NCBI GenBank assembly: GCA_003551865.1
Contig: PUNU01000150.1
Location: 1 to 8,343, forward strand
Direction: 5' to 3'
DNA from: Syntrophomonadaceae bacterium
Lineage (GTDB): Bacteria > Bacillota_D > Dethiobacteria > DTU022
Length of the DNA: 8,343 bases
Below, piece by piece: positions 618 to 3,354 of the stretch. The notes beneath the pieces are model-generated. The model saw only the letters and a list, made by a program, of their open reading frames with translations. It was not told where the DNA came from and ran no database searches. Position 1 is the first letter of the stretch; each line of letters opens with the position of its first letter. Position numbers and translations under genes: made by a program.

Positions 618-1601
618 ATGACGATTACAACCGTTTTGATGATCGCTGTAACGGCCTCCTTTCTAATTGTGGCCGTGGCCTGTCCTTACTTTATTAAAAA
701 GATGCAGCTTCTGCAGCATGGCCAATATATCCGGGATGACGGTCCGGCCACTCATTCAGTCAAGGCCGGTACCCCGACCATGGGCGGAATTGTCATTATT
801 TTAACTTTTTTCCTGATCAGCATAATTCTGGCTGGAGCTTCACCTTTACTTTATGCGGCTTTGCTGGTTGCTTTGGGCTGCGGCCTGCTCGGCTTTCTTG
901 ATGACTATTTCAAATTGACCCGCAGCCGTTCTTTGGGGATAAAAGCCCGCTCCAAGCTGGCCGGTGAATTTGCCATTGCCCTGCTCTTTGTTTTGATGCT
1001 TAACACTTTTGGGCTTTACTCCACAGAAGTTTCCGTGCCTCTAATTTCTGTAGGCGTCGATCTCGGTTGGTTTTACCCGCTGTTTGCCTTTTTGATCATT
1101 ACTGCAGCCAGCAACAGCGTCAACCTTACCGACGGCATTGACGGACTGGCTGCGGGCACGACGGTAATTGCCATGGGAGCATTTGCTTATATTGCCTACC
1201 GCAGCGGGTTGCCGGAAATTACCCTTTTTTGTGCCGCTGTTGCCGGGGCCTGTCTCGGTTTTCTGGTTTATAACCGCCACCCGGCAAAGCTGTTTATGGG
1301 CGATGTAGGCTCCCTTGCTTTGGGCGGCGCTTTTGCCGCCGTGGCGATACTGACAAAAACAGAATTATTTTTAATTATCATCGGCGGAGTTTTTGTTCTG
1401 GAAGCGCTTTCGGTGATTATCCAGGTAATCAGTTTTCAGCTGACCGGCCGGCGGGTTTTGCTGATGAGCCCGCTGCACCACCATCTGGAGCTGAAAGGCT
1501 GGTCGGAATGGCGGGTGGTGACCACCCTCTGGAGCGCGGCCCTGCTTTTCGCCGCAATCGGAGTAATGGTTTACAACGCCAGTGCCCTGTCAACGTATTA
1601 A
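618..1601 (+). CDS. mraY: MraY, phospho-N-acetylmuramoyl-pentapeptide transferase
   Basis: This integral membrane enzyme transfers phospho-MurNAc-pentapeptide from UDP to undecaprenyl phosphate, giving lipid I. The 327-residue length is normal for the family. Motifs appear in the expected order: HSVKAGTPTMGG (46-57), the Mg-binding pair D95-D96 in FLDDYFK, SNSVNLTDGIDGL (165-177), FMGDVGS (226-232, with catalytic-site D229), and the MSPLHHHLELKGW loop (His287-289). About ten hydrophobic segments separate them, as expected for this fold. GDVGS replaces the more frequent GDTGS, a mild and probably neutral change. The ATG start is supported by AAAGGAG at 601-607, ten bases upstream, and the gene follows murF after two bases, indicating co-transcription. 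Downstream the operon is interrupted by a 337-base gap containing a mobile element, so mraY may be partly uncoupled from murD. Confidence 0.98.
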   Translation: MTITTVLMIAVTASFLIVAVACPYFIKKMQLLQHGQYIRDDGPATHSVKAGTPTMGGIVIILTFFLISIILAGASPLLYAALLVALGCGLLGFLDDYFKLTRSRSLGIKARSKLAGEFAIALLFVLMLNTFGLYSTEVSVPLISVGVDLGWFYPLFAFLIITAASNSVNLTDGIDGLAAGTTVIAMGAFAYIAYRSGLPEITLFCAAVAGACLGFLVYNRHPAKLFMGDVGSLALGGAFAAVAILTKTELFLIIIGGVFVLEALSVIIQVISFQLTGRRVLLMSPLHHHLELKGWSEWRVVTTLWSAALLFAAIGVMVYNASALSTY

Positions 1602-1626
1602 GAGCGTGATTTGTAATTTATTACAA

Positions 1627-1634
1627 CAATTATC
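1627..1634. repeat. Left 8-bp target-site duplication, CAATTATC
   Basis: CAATTATC lies directly before the left terminal inverted repeat at 1635. An identical copy sits directly after the right terminal repeat at 1776-1783. The match is exactly 8 bp: the neighbouring bases on both sides differ. Exact abutment of both copies to the inverted-repeat ends is what a transposition event leaves behind. Confidence 0.85.
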
Positions 1635-1775
1635 GTAACTACTCAGCCTGTTGTCCTTGTTGAGTGAAAAGCGGTGCCATGGGGACGGTTCGAGCGTTCC
1701 TGAGCGTAGCGAAGGCCGAAGGGAAAACGATGGAACCGTCCCCTATGGCATAGCGGGTTAGGCCTGAGTAGTTAC
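1635..1775. mobile_element. 141-bp MITE-like element with IS66-type ends
   Basis: The element starts with GTAACTACTCAG (1635-1646) and ends with the exact reverse complement CTGAGTAGTTAC (1764-1775). Beyond these 12 bp, CCT (1647-1649) and AGG (1760-1762) extend the match after a one-base offset. It is flanked by perfect 8-bp direct repeats CAATTATC. IS66-family insertion sequences are known for ends beginning 5'-GTAA and for 8-bp target duplications, so an IS66-derived non-autonomous element is the best fit; the family assignment is inference. It has no room for a transposase and must have been moved in trans. Its interior carries a second, nested palindrome (1675-1750). It separates mraY from murD without breaking either gene. 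No promoter pointing into murD is evident inside it. Confidence 0.8.
1675..1750. repeat. Nested long palindrome with GGGGACGGTTC arms
   Basis: TGCCATGGGGACGGTTC (1675-1691) is complementary to GAACCGTCCCC (1733-1743) plus ATGGCA (1745-1750), giving a 17-bp stem with a single bulged T at 1744. The apical part is about 41 bases and contains CCTGAGCGTAGCGAAGG (1699-1715), itself an imperfect small palindrome. In RNA this would form a very stable hairpin inside the mraY-murD transcript. No run of T follows it, so it does not look like an intrinsic terminator. From memory, GGGGACGGTTC-type palindromes are common dispersed repeats in Clostridia, sometimes near IS200-like REP-associated transposases; I could not verify this here. 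It may be an integral part of the surrounding 141-bp element or a later insertion into it. Confidence 0.75.
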
Positions 1776-1783
1776 CAATTATC
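1776..1783. repeat. Right 8-bp target-site duplication, CAATTATC
   Basis: This is the second copy of CAATTATC, starting on the base after the right terminal inverted repeat ends (1775). It is identical to 1627-1634. Together the two copies mark the original insertion point; removing 1635-1783 would restore a single CAATTATC and the presumed pre-insertion spacer. Confidence 0.85.
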
Positions 1784-1796
1784 TATTTAAAGGAGG

Positions 1797-1873
1797 TGTT
1801 GCAAGCCGGAAGCGAACATAAAGCGAGCCGTAAAAATTCCAGGCGAGCGATCCGTGAGCGCCGGCTTGCAACA
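1797..1873. repeat. 77-bp inverted-repeat element of unknown type
   Basis: TGTTGCAAGCCGG (1797-1809) and CCGGCTTGCAACA (1861-1873) form a perfect 13-bp inverted repeat around a 51-base, purine-rich centre. The centre repeats a GCGA core: AGCGAACATAA, AGCGAGCCGTAA and GGCGAGCG follow one another, then GTGAGCG. I find no good internal stem. A strong Shine-Dalgarno-like string AAAGGAGGTG (1789-1798) overlaps the left arm, and GTTTT follows the right arm. ATTTAAA occurs on both sides (1785-1791 and 1881-1887), which could be a target duplication or chance in AT-rich DNA. It may be a dispersed repeat, a small structured RNA leader of murD, or a weak attenuator; the sequence alone does not decide. 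Confidence 0.6.
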
Positions 1874-1926
1874 GTTTTGAATTTAAAACAGAACAGACTG
1901 ATTTGACAGGGCACTGGTTATTACAT

Positions 1927-1931
1927 GGAGG
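1927..1931 (+). promoter_or_regulatory. Ribosome binding site that sets the murD start
   Basis: GGAGG ends seven bases before GTG at 1939, an ideal spacing. This favours GTG 1939 over the in-frame TTG at 1903, which has no ribosome site in front of it and would add 12 residues unlike MurD. Confidence 0.85.
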
Positions 1932-1938
1932 TTCCGCT

Positions 1939-3354
1939 GTGATTGATTTAATCAAGGACAGTGAAGTGCTGGTGGTGGGCCTGGCCCGCAGCGGTATGGC
2001 TGCTGTCAAGGTGCTGAGCGAAGCCGGTGCGACCAAAATAACGGTTACCGATCGAAAGCAATCCGAACAGTTGCGCGATGAGCTGGCTGCGCTTAAGCGC
2101 TTTCCGTCAGCCTCCGCGGTAACCGGCGGCAACCCTCCCGAACTGGTCAAGGAATCGCTGTCAATGATCATAAAAAGCCCAGGGGTGCCGCCGTCCCTGG
2201 AGCTGTTTAAACGCGCTGTAGACCTGGGGATACCGGTTTATTCCGAAATTGAACTGGCCTACCCCTTTATAAAAGCTCCCCTTGTAGGCGTGACCGGGAC
2301 CAACGGAAAGACGACAACCACCGCCCTGATTGCGGCAATTCTTGAAGAAGCCCGATTTGACCCGGTCGTTTCGGCGGGCAATATCGGCAACCCTCTGGCT
2401 GGAGTGGCCGGACGGATCAATGCCCAGGGGATTGTAGTAGCCGAGTTAAGCAGTTTCCAGCTGGAAGATATCGAACATTTTCGCCCGGCTGTAGCGGTGT
2501 TCATTAATTTTGCCGCGGATCACCTGGATTACCATGACAGTGTTGATAAATATTTTCAGGCGAAAGCGCGGATCCTGGAAAACCAGGGCAAAGGAGATTA
2601 CGCCGTGCTCAATGCCGGAGATCCAAAAGTGGCTTCCCTGGAAAGCAGGTGCAGGGGACAGCTTATCTGGTTTGACCGTAAGCCGGTTTCACTGGGAGTG
2701 GGCCTGGAAGAAGGTTTGATAACCATTTACCGGCCGAAAGCCGAACCGCAAATGATCTGTCCCCGGAACGAAATAGCCCTGCCGGGTGAGCATAACCTGG
2801 AAAATTCCCTGGCTGCTGCAGCTGCGGCCTGGGCTGCCGGGGCCGATCCTCAGTCTATCGGCAGTGCCCTGCGCAAATTCCGCGCAATCGAACACCGTCT
2901 GGAACCGGTAGCCGTTCTCGGCGGTGTCGACTATATCAATGATTCCAAGGGCACCAACCCCGGGGCAACAATTAAAGCACTGCAATCTTTCCCCGACCGC
3001 CGGAAAATCCTTATTGCCGGGGGCAAGGACAAGGGCGGCGATTTTGGCGAACTGGCTTCCGTGATCAAAGAGGAATTAAAATTCCTGGTTTTGCTTGGCG
3101 AGACGAAAGATCGGATTGCCCGGGCTGTTGAAGAAGCCGGTTTTACAGCCTACCAAAAAGTTGAGACCCTGGAAGAAGCGGTCAAAGCCGCTTATGAGAA
3201 AGCCGAAAAAGGCGACGTGGTTTTGCTTTCCCCGGCCTGCGCAAGCTGGGATATGTTTAGTGATTATGAAGCCCGGGGCAACCTGTTCAAGGAGCGGGTT
3301 AGAAATCTTAAAGCTCCTGAGCAGGATAGGGGGAGTAAGAATGAAGAGCGCTAA
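1939..3354 (+). CDS. murD: MurD, UDP-N-acetylmuramoyl-L-alanine--D-glutamate ligase
   Basis: This cytoplasmic ATP-dependent ligase adds D-glutamate to UDP-MurNAc-L-Ala. From GTG 1939 it is 471 residues, close to the family's usual 440-460 plus a short charged tail. The N-terminal Rossmann-like UDP-binding domain has VLVVGLARSG (10-19) and SPGVP (80-84). The central ATPase domain has the P-loop GVTGTNGKTTT (117-127), catalytic Glu in AELSSFQLE (E169), DHLD (194-197), the lysine expected to be carbamylated in YFQAKARILEN (K209), and EHNLENSLAA (284-293). The C-terminal domain has EHRLE (318-322), NDSKGTN (334-340), AGGKDKGGDF and SPACASWDMF (432-440 region). All catalytic landmarks are present. 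The last 14 bases overlap the ftsW start, implying translational coupling. Upstream is a repeat-filled gap, so murD may depend on read-through or on a promoter I cannot recognise. Confidence 0.97.
   Translation: MIDLIKDSEVLVVGLARSGMAAVKVLSEAGATKITVTDRKQSEQLRDELAALKRFPSASAVTGGNPPELVKESLSMIIKSPGVPPSLELFKRAVDLGIPVYSEIELAYPFIKAPLVGVTGTNGKTTTTALIAAILEEARFDPVVSAGNIGNPLAGVAGRINAQGIVVAELSSFQLEDIEHFRPAVAVFINFAADHLDYHDSVDKYFQAKARILENQGKGDYAVLNAGDPKVASLESRCRGQLIWFDRKPVSLGVGLEEGLITIYRPKAEPQMICPRNEIALPGEHNLENSLAAAAAAWAAGADPQSIGSALRKFRAIEHRLEPVAVLGGVDYINDSKGTNPGATIKALQSFPDRRKILIAGGKDKGGDFGELASVIKEELKFLVLLGETKDRIARAVEEAGFTAYQKVETLEEAVKAAYEKAEKGDVVLLSPACASWDMFSDYEARGNLFKERVRNLKAPEQDRGSKNEER

Follow-up and report, generated by a model that had tools for sequence, protein, structure and literature searches.

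What is the short inverted-repeat sequence that lies between mraY and murD in the window (the whole 8,343-nucleotide stretch of DNA analysed here), and how did it come to be in a cluster of cell-wall genes? We conclude with high confidence that it is a MITE of the IS66 family, that it is nested in an older inverted-repeat element, here called X, and that the hairpin inside it is a separate repeat. The kinds of part found in this MITE and its two further layers are known, and their combination is new. Our literature search, which covered mainly titles and abstracts and few subscription journals, returned no description of an IS66 MITE or of a MITE with a REP-like hairpin; the MITE described in the accessible part of PMC12888890 has a 4-bp repeat.

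Structure and setting of the element

The genes of the window follow the order murF (end), mraY, murD, ftsW, murG, murB, ftsQ-like and ftsA-like. The names were assigned by eye from the ORFs, except for mraY and murD, which were compared with relatives. The first murD start proposed by the ORF tool was the TTG at 1903, and by eye the GTG listed in Table 1 is preceded by GGAGG.

Table 1. Features of the mraY-murD region, with positions in the window
Feature	Position	Strand	Remarks
MITE with IS66-type ends, 141 bp	1635..1775	+	ends, duplication, copies, full-length relative L289
Left terminal inverted repeat GTAACTACTCAG	1635..1646	+	
Right terminal inverted repeat CTGAGTAGTTAC	1764..1775	-	
Left 8-bp target-site duplication CAATTATC	1627..1634	.	
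Right 8-bp target-site duplication CAATTATC	1776..1783	.	
Inner hairpin unit, ~87 bp	1670..1756	+	also in another MITE family
Core of the inner unit, GGGGACGGTTC ... GAACCGTCCCC, 63 bp	1681..1743	+	
Older inverted-repeat element X	1579..1917	+	recipient of the MITE
Left end of X, CCAGTGCCCTGTCAA	1579..1593	+	within the last mraY codons
Right end of X, TTGACAGGGCACTGG	1903..1917	-	
mraY	618..1601	+	last codons and stop inside X
murD	1939..3354	+	probable start GTG 1939 (by eye)

The original prediction had described perfect 12-bp inverted ends spanning 141 bp, each directly abutted by an 8-bp repeat, and all of these features were confirmed at the same coordinates. The two terminal repeats are complementary at 12 of 12 positions over an end-to-end span of 141 bp, and CAATTATC adjoins both MITE ends at zero distance. 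That such a fit is very unlikely to arise by chance, as had also been claimed, was supported by simulation. Across 200 Markov-1 random windows there were 58 perfect 12-bp inverted pairs 50 to 400 bp apart, none of which (0/58) had an adjoining 8-bp direct repeat. Seven such pairs were present in the real window (overlapping 12-mers of longer repeats being counted separately), and one of them had an adjoining 8-bp repeat. The MITE has no coding capacity, as 141 bp allow 47 codons at most, and the program-made list held no ORF of at least 80 aa overlapping 1635-1775. A palindrome, TTGTAATTTATTACAA, was seen at 1611-1626, directly to the left of the left duplication.

The strand of the MITE gave a predicted folding energy of -69.8 kcal/mol, compared with a shuffle mean of -45 kcal/mol (sd 3.76; z -6.60), and none of the 200 shuffles folded as well. 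This very stable fold, together with the statement in the available portion of PMC3733652 that transcribed MITE hairpins can alter mRNA stability, might suggest that the element is a functional part of the mraY-murD operon, conserved as a regulatory RNA or as a hairpin for processing, whose likeness to a transposon is only secondary. However, we find this explanation scarcely credible. None of the 80 mraY loci contained a pair of MITE ends or the hairpin core, and their mraY-murD gaps were mostly a few base pairs long. Copies with target duplications are dispersed at other loci, as described below. Furthermore, window 1500-2000 had no Rfam match at E<=1, and no terminator-like site was found in 1500-2050, where the minus strand gave a single weak promoter-like match. 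The element would form a long stem in the mraY-murD transcript; no benefit to the host need be assumed, and its effect on the host is most likely mild or none.

Copies, target duplications and a full-length IS66 relative

Window 1600-1925 was matched at E<=0.01 in 51 of 199 genomes related to G001, where no more than a few candidates per genome were scored. A closer search of five of these genomes, in which no more than 40 candidates were scored per genome, so that the counts apply to the matches listed, gave matches of any extent numbering 41 in G035, 20 in G022, 41 in G038, 29 in G003 and 9 in G037. At least 34 matches in four of these genomes were near-full-length, running from query position 11 or lower through 142 or higher of 157 (19 in G035, 6 in G022, 8 in G038 and 1 in G003), and G037 had partial matches only among those listed. 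The original prediction had held that a lack of other copies would speak against it; relatives do hold multiple dispersed copies, for example the near-full-length ones in G035, with duplications of their own. The insertion had also been called fairly recent. The insertion may be recent, which the intact duplication fits, but among the matches listed the best near-full-length copy was 87% identical to the window MITE.

Of 199 genomes related to G035, 16 contained the pattern GTAACTACTCAGSC, including 38 places in G035, 41 in G051 and 22 in G061, and its reversed control occurred at one place each in four of the 199 genomes. The two-ended pattern with other interiors was found at four places in G372 and at one in G129, the two positive genomes among 299 drawn from the phylum (control, 0), and also in a single viral stretch, L081. 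MITE-type ends surrounded unrelated interiors, with duplications, in L119, L120 and L122 (8/8) and in L081 and L121 (7/8). A distant-mode search of the plasmid collection returned nine records, each matching over 27-30 bp only. The 14-mer GTAACTACTCAGCC was present in 113 viral contig stretches. A scan of loci L149-L260 for two ends separated by 50-4,500 bp, with no more than two mismatches, yielded ten pairs, none with more than 3/8 matching flank bases; these viral pairs are probably mostly chance and were rejected as elements.

The duplication length was examined in 46 elements of 50-260 bp, the window copy included, with at most three mismatches over both ends, flanks of 20 bp or more on both sides and one element per place, all chosen blind to the duplication. 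Identical 8-bp flanks were found in 20 of the 46, and 32 matched at 7/8 or better. Flank identity was 0.79 at length 8 as opposed to 0.28-0.41 at lengths 4-7 and 9-13. No element had identical flanks at lengths 5-7 or 9-13, and one did at length 4. In 1000 shuffled flank pairings, none was identical over 8 bp, and the maximum with 7/8 was three. The remaining 14 elements, with a flank match below 7/8, include pairs with three mismatches as well as L118 and L302, where the end used in the test is followed outward by another, to which the duplication belongs.

In these two loci (L118 1478-1512, L302 987-1012), two or three ends stand in tandem on one side, and the duplication is that of the outermost end. 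Several other variants were observed. Copies in G022 (L126, L136, L145, L313 and L314) form a subfamily with ends GTAACTGCTCAG, in which both ends have changed together. The inner hairpin of L303 778-922 is symmetric, its left half matching the right one, as though by conversion across the hairpin. The 55-bp L308, which has perfect ends and a duplication and carries no hairpin, was considered as a core-less ancestral MITE and rejected; it fits a deletion from an L303-like copy and is therefore uninformative on direction. A consensus fold of 24 copies, weakened by the deletion copies among them, contained a single base pair in which both partners had changed; it lies in the terminal repeat and is A-U in 19 copies and G-C in 5.

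The original prediction had proposed looking for an IS66 transposase locus with the same ends, and such a locus, L289 (element at L289 1029-3472), was found on G064:C122. It is a 2,444-bp element with 21-bp perfect ends beginning GTAACTACTCAGCCT; the first 15 bases of the MITE on the left and 12 bases on the right equal its IS66 end. Its 535-aa ORF matched DDE_Tnp_IS66 (PF03050, E 1.5e-50), and the 510-aa form scored 320.5 bits against NF033517 (IS66 transposase; cut-off 180). L289 also encodes a 289-aa DruA-domain protein (PF14236), and no tnpA-tnpB pair was seen by eye among its ORFs of at least 60 aa. A target duplication was absent from L289, whose flanks are ATATATAT and AAGAAATC. In addition, on five contigs of three genomes (G094:C90, G078:C23, G078:C6, G062:C57 and G062:C40), the C-terminus of an IS66 fragment is followed after ~40-50 bp by a MITE-type end, as in L289. 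Relatives of the L289 transposase occurred in 26 of 199 genomes.

An IS66 transposase was not found in the copy-rich genomes G035, G022 and G038, whose assemblies are in many contigs. MITEs that have outlived their IS66 partner, or incomplete assemblies, would explain this absence. The MITE-richest genomes without an IS66 gene could instead point to a different DDE family with an 8-bp duplication and a GTAA start by coincidence; 8-bp duplications also occur in other IS families, for example in one IS21 and one IS6 member according to the available part of PMC3281130. Such a different family is very improbable, as the identical ends of the full-length IS66 element L289 largely refute it, and the five further IS66 fragments carry the same end at a similar distance. 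The proposal of an IS66-derived non-autonomous element was upheld by the dispersed copies with the same ends, the length-specific duplication, L289 and the empty site described below. An IS66 transposase would have moved the MITE in trans into an AT-rich 8-bp target.

The window MITE resembles IS66-family insertion sequences in its GTAA ends and 8-bp duplication, and PF03050 is present in its relative L289. Unlike those insertion sequences, it is 141 bp long and gene-less. Published members of the family, as far as the accessible sections of the sources describe them, start with GTAAGCG or GTAACCG and have three genes (ISPsko1 and ISPa75; PMC12888890), or are 2.7-2.8 kb long with 8-bp repeats (ISPpa5a and ISPpa7; PMC3281130). 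L289 differs from the published three-gene members by pairing the transposase with a DruA-domain protein. The case further suggests that an IS66 group whose partner is a DruA-domain protein may drive MITEs.

Two other loci were considered as full-length elements and rejected. L123, the only PF03050 match among 13 genomes, has a DruA partner gene, but no exact copy of the MITE ends. L290 has 2,688 bp between two ends; its ORFs appeared by eye to be helicase-like and cold-shock-like, and it was therefore taken as two separate ends. The IS66-type transposase gene adjoins a DruA-domain gene (PF14236, Druantia) in both L289 1029-3472 and L123. Our literature search found no paper on DUF4338 together with IS66.

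The outer element X and the empty site

A 15-bp inverted repeat encloses the MITE and delimits X, with the mraY stop codon inside. The gap between the mraY stop and the probable murD start is 337 bp in the window; in 74 measurable relatives the median is 2 bp and the longest gap 285 bp. These relatives came from 80 mraY loci kept of 577 confirmed ones; 78 had both genes, of which L009, L038, L039 and L053 gave impossible distances and were left out. In mraY, the window is 67-68% identical to its three closest relatives, which are MAGs with the names Bacillota or Syntrophomonadaceae, so the genus of the window is probably absent among the relatives.

We searched 99 genomes with the part of the window to the right of the MITE. 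The best match was G016:C274 (E 3.4e-10 over 45 bp), followed by G001 (1.2e-4); hits at E<=1 came from 68 of the 99 genomes and were almost all near chance level. The X homologue in G016:C274 is without the MITE and lies directly downstream of a ligase-like gene and beside an acyl-CoA-dehydrogenase-like gene (by eye). When the window flanks were joined by a single CAATTATC, they aligned with G016:C274 over 120 gapless columns through the insertion point, with a score of 112. When the MITE was retained, the top-scoring local alignment reached 74 and covered the right side only, and 200 shuffles scored 34 or less. The empty target site is an X homologue at another locus of another genome, and its gapless alignment indicates that the MITE entered an older element X, which is found at different loci. 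The 8-bp target lay inside X, between mraY and murD.

The empty site had been expected in the mraY-murD gap of close relatives; the one seen for the window lies in the X homologue at another locus. The original prediction had further stressed an insertion within an essential gene cluster; the cluster is as described, but the MITE is intergenic and sits inside the earlier insertion X. The locus thus presents a nested insertion in a cell-wall gene cluster with a readable order, X and then the IS66-type MITE.

Among the copies in G035, one was missing from the corresponding gap in six of six aligned relatives, with the flanking genes matching on both sides; the gap sequences of the six did not align in detail, and no single target copy was seen in them. 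Alignments for two other G035 copies showed no clear empty site: one copy had no duplication (1/8), and for the other a MITE-like copy was present in the same gap of the relative G038. A search for X in 199 genomes returned G016 plus two end-like matches. L460 (G037) has CTAGTGCCCTGTCAA, and L461 (G001) shows a weaker match to the X end. X itself contains a second perfect hairpin at 1797-1873 (TGTTGCAAGCCGG / CCGGCTTGCAACA), and the adjacent AAGCCGGAAGCGAACATAAAGCG is found again within short matches to G016 and G001.

The inner hairpin and its carriers

The inner unit of the MITE matched many genomes without the MITE arms. From the fetched loci we collected 93 cases in which GGGGACGGTTC and its complement stand 50-110 bp from each other; the sample is biased, as most loci were fetched for similarity and four cores come from one place in L101. 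Under a loose rule (at most five mismatches over both 12-bp ends), 41 of the 93 cores lay between IS66-type ends, 12 between ACTACAGCGAAA ends, and one between GTATATATTCAG ends, and 39 were left unassigned, several of the last being visibly truncated IS66-type copies. A stricter rule of at most three mismatches at each end gave 33 IS66-class cores, 25 of which had a duplication of 7/8 or better.

These numbers of cores between IS66-type ends, and the conservation of the MITE arms within that family, would also be expected if the hairpin were the ordinary middle of one MITE family with no separate history. We consider this unlikely on three grounds. In eight of 11 testable elements with ACTACAGCGAAA ends, a 4-bp NTAN duplication lies one base beyond the end pattern (the twelfth was excluded because one end was poor; the register was chosen post hoc; 2000 shuffles gave a mean of 1.5 and a maximum of 7). 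The core in L112 is bordered by GTATATATTCAG ends, a pattern taken from L112 itself, and the duplication there is 8/8. Several copies of the hairpin have no recognisable ends. At its centre the MITE carries a separate repeat, which it shares with a second MITE family that differs in its ends and in having a 4-bp duplication; this hairpin has a history of its own. As the same hairpin lies between ends with different duplications, different transposases appear to carry it. Members of the second family, with ACTACAGCGAAA ends and the same hairpin, were observed in L092, L093, L099, L106, L114, L115, L131, L138 and others.

The window element resembles bacterial MITEs such as RUP, NEMIS and ERIC, as described in the accessible text of PMC3733652, in being short, gene-less, intergenic and hairpin-forming, with inverted ends and a target duplication. 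Unlike those MITEs as described there, its interior is a repeat common to another MITE family, and the copy is nested in a third element.

Matches to Y1 transposases were found in 10 of the 12 genomes searched. GGGGACGGT or its complement was present in four of 30 Y1 loci, and 26 of the 30 were without even the first nine bases of the 11-bp motif; GGGGACGGT had no occurrence in 116,394 bp of 19 mraY loci. The motif stands inverted on both sides of the Y1 gene in three of the 30 loci, L382, L398 and L400. Against the NCBIfam model of the REP-associated tyrosine transposase, their proteins scored 82.5, 89.3 and 72.6 bits, respectively, with a cut-off of 80 that L400 does not reach. Because some Y1 genes are bracketed by inverted GGGGACGGTTC, the inner unit may once have been spread by a REP-type (Y1, HUH) tyrosine transposase. 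To judge from the 11-bp motif present in both, a shared origin of the MITE core and the Y1-associated motif is plausible.

The inner unit is like the TIRYT/TIRtron elements and REPINs, as characterised in the available portions of PMC3733652, PMC6006769 and PMC3116915, in being an inverted doublet that forms a hairpin, and its end motif brackets some Y1 genes in related genomes. TIRYT genes are flanked by repeats with the motif GGGGWSAS, according to the parts of PMC3733652 and PMC6006769 that were accessible. The end motif in the window, GGGGACGG, fits only 7/8 of GGGGWSAS, with the mismatch at base 7, and the inner hairpin was therefore not filed as a TIRYT member; some copies, for example in L104, L110 and L116, read GGGGACAG, which fits GGGGWSAS. 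By eye, no GTAG tag was seen at the foot of 1670-1756. Unlike TIRYT elements and REPINs as those sources describe them, the inner unit of the window copy has neither the full GGGGWSAS nor GTAG, and it is carried in MITEs with DDE-type duplications.

We tentatively raise the possibility that a Y1/HUH hairpin unit repeatedly becomes the heart of different DDE MITEs, for example by inserting itself at the exposed tip of a MITE hairpin. If so, the hairpin would gain a second vehicle and might raise the copy number of its carrier, and two unrelated transposition systems would be in a standing partnership. The occurrence of the hairpin in families with 8-bp and 4-bp duplications makes the use of DDE-type MITE carriers by Y1-type repeats testable.

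The motif was also compared between its two settings. There are 28 occurrences that no MITE-type core sequence follows, some of them near one another within a single locus. In 14 of the 28 the motif is the loop of a short hairpin whose stem is at least 5 bp long (~2.7 expected in shuffled sequence), and these stems vary from element to element. None of 106 core-type occurrences, with both ends of each unit counted, had a stem longer than 2 bp. GGGGACGGTTC was seen as a constant loop on a variable stem in L382, L398, L400, L101, L110, L425 and others. The variable stem is alike at both ends of one Y1 gene; GGAAGCAA, for example, occurs twice in L398.
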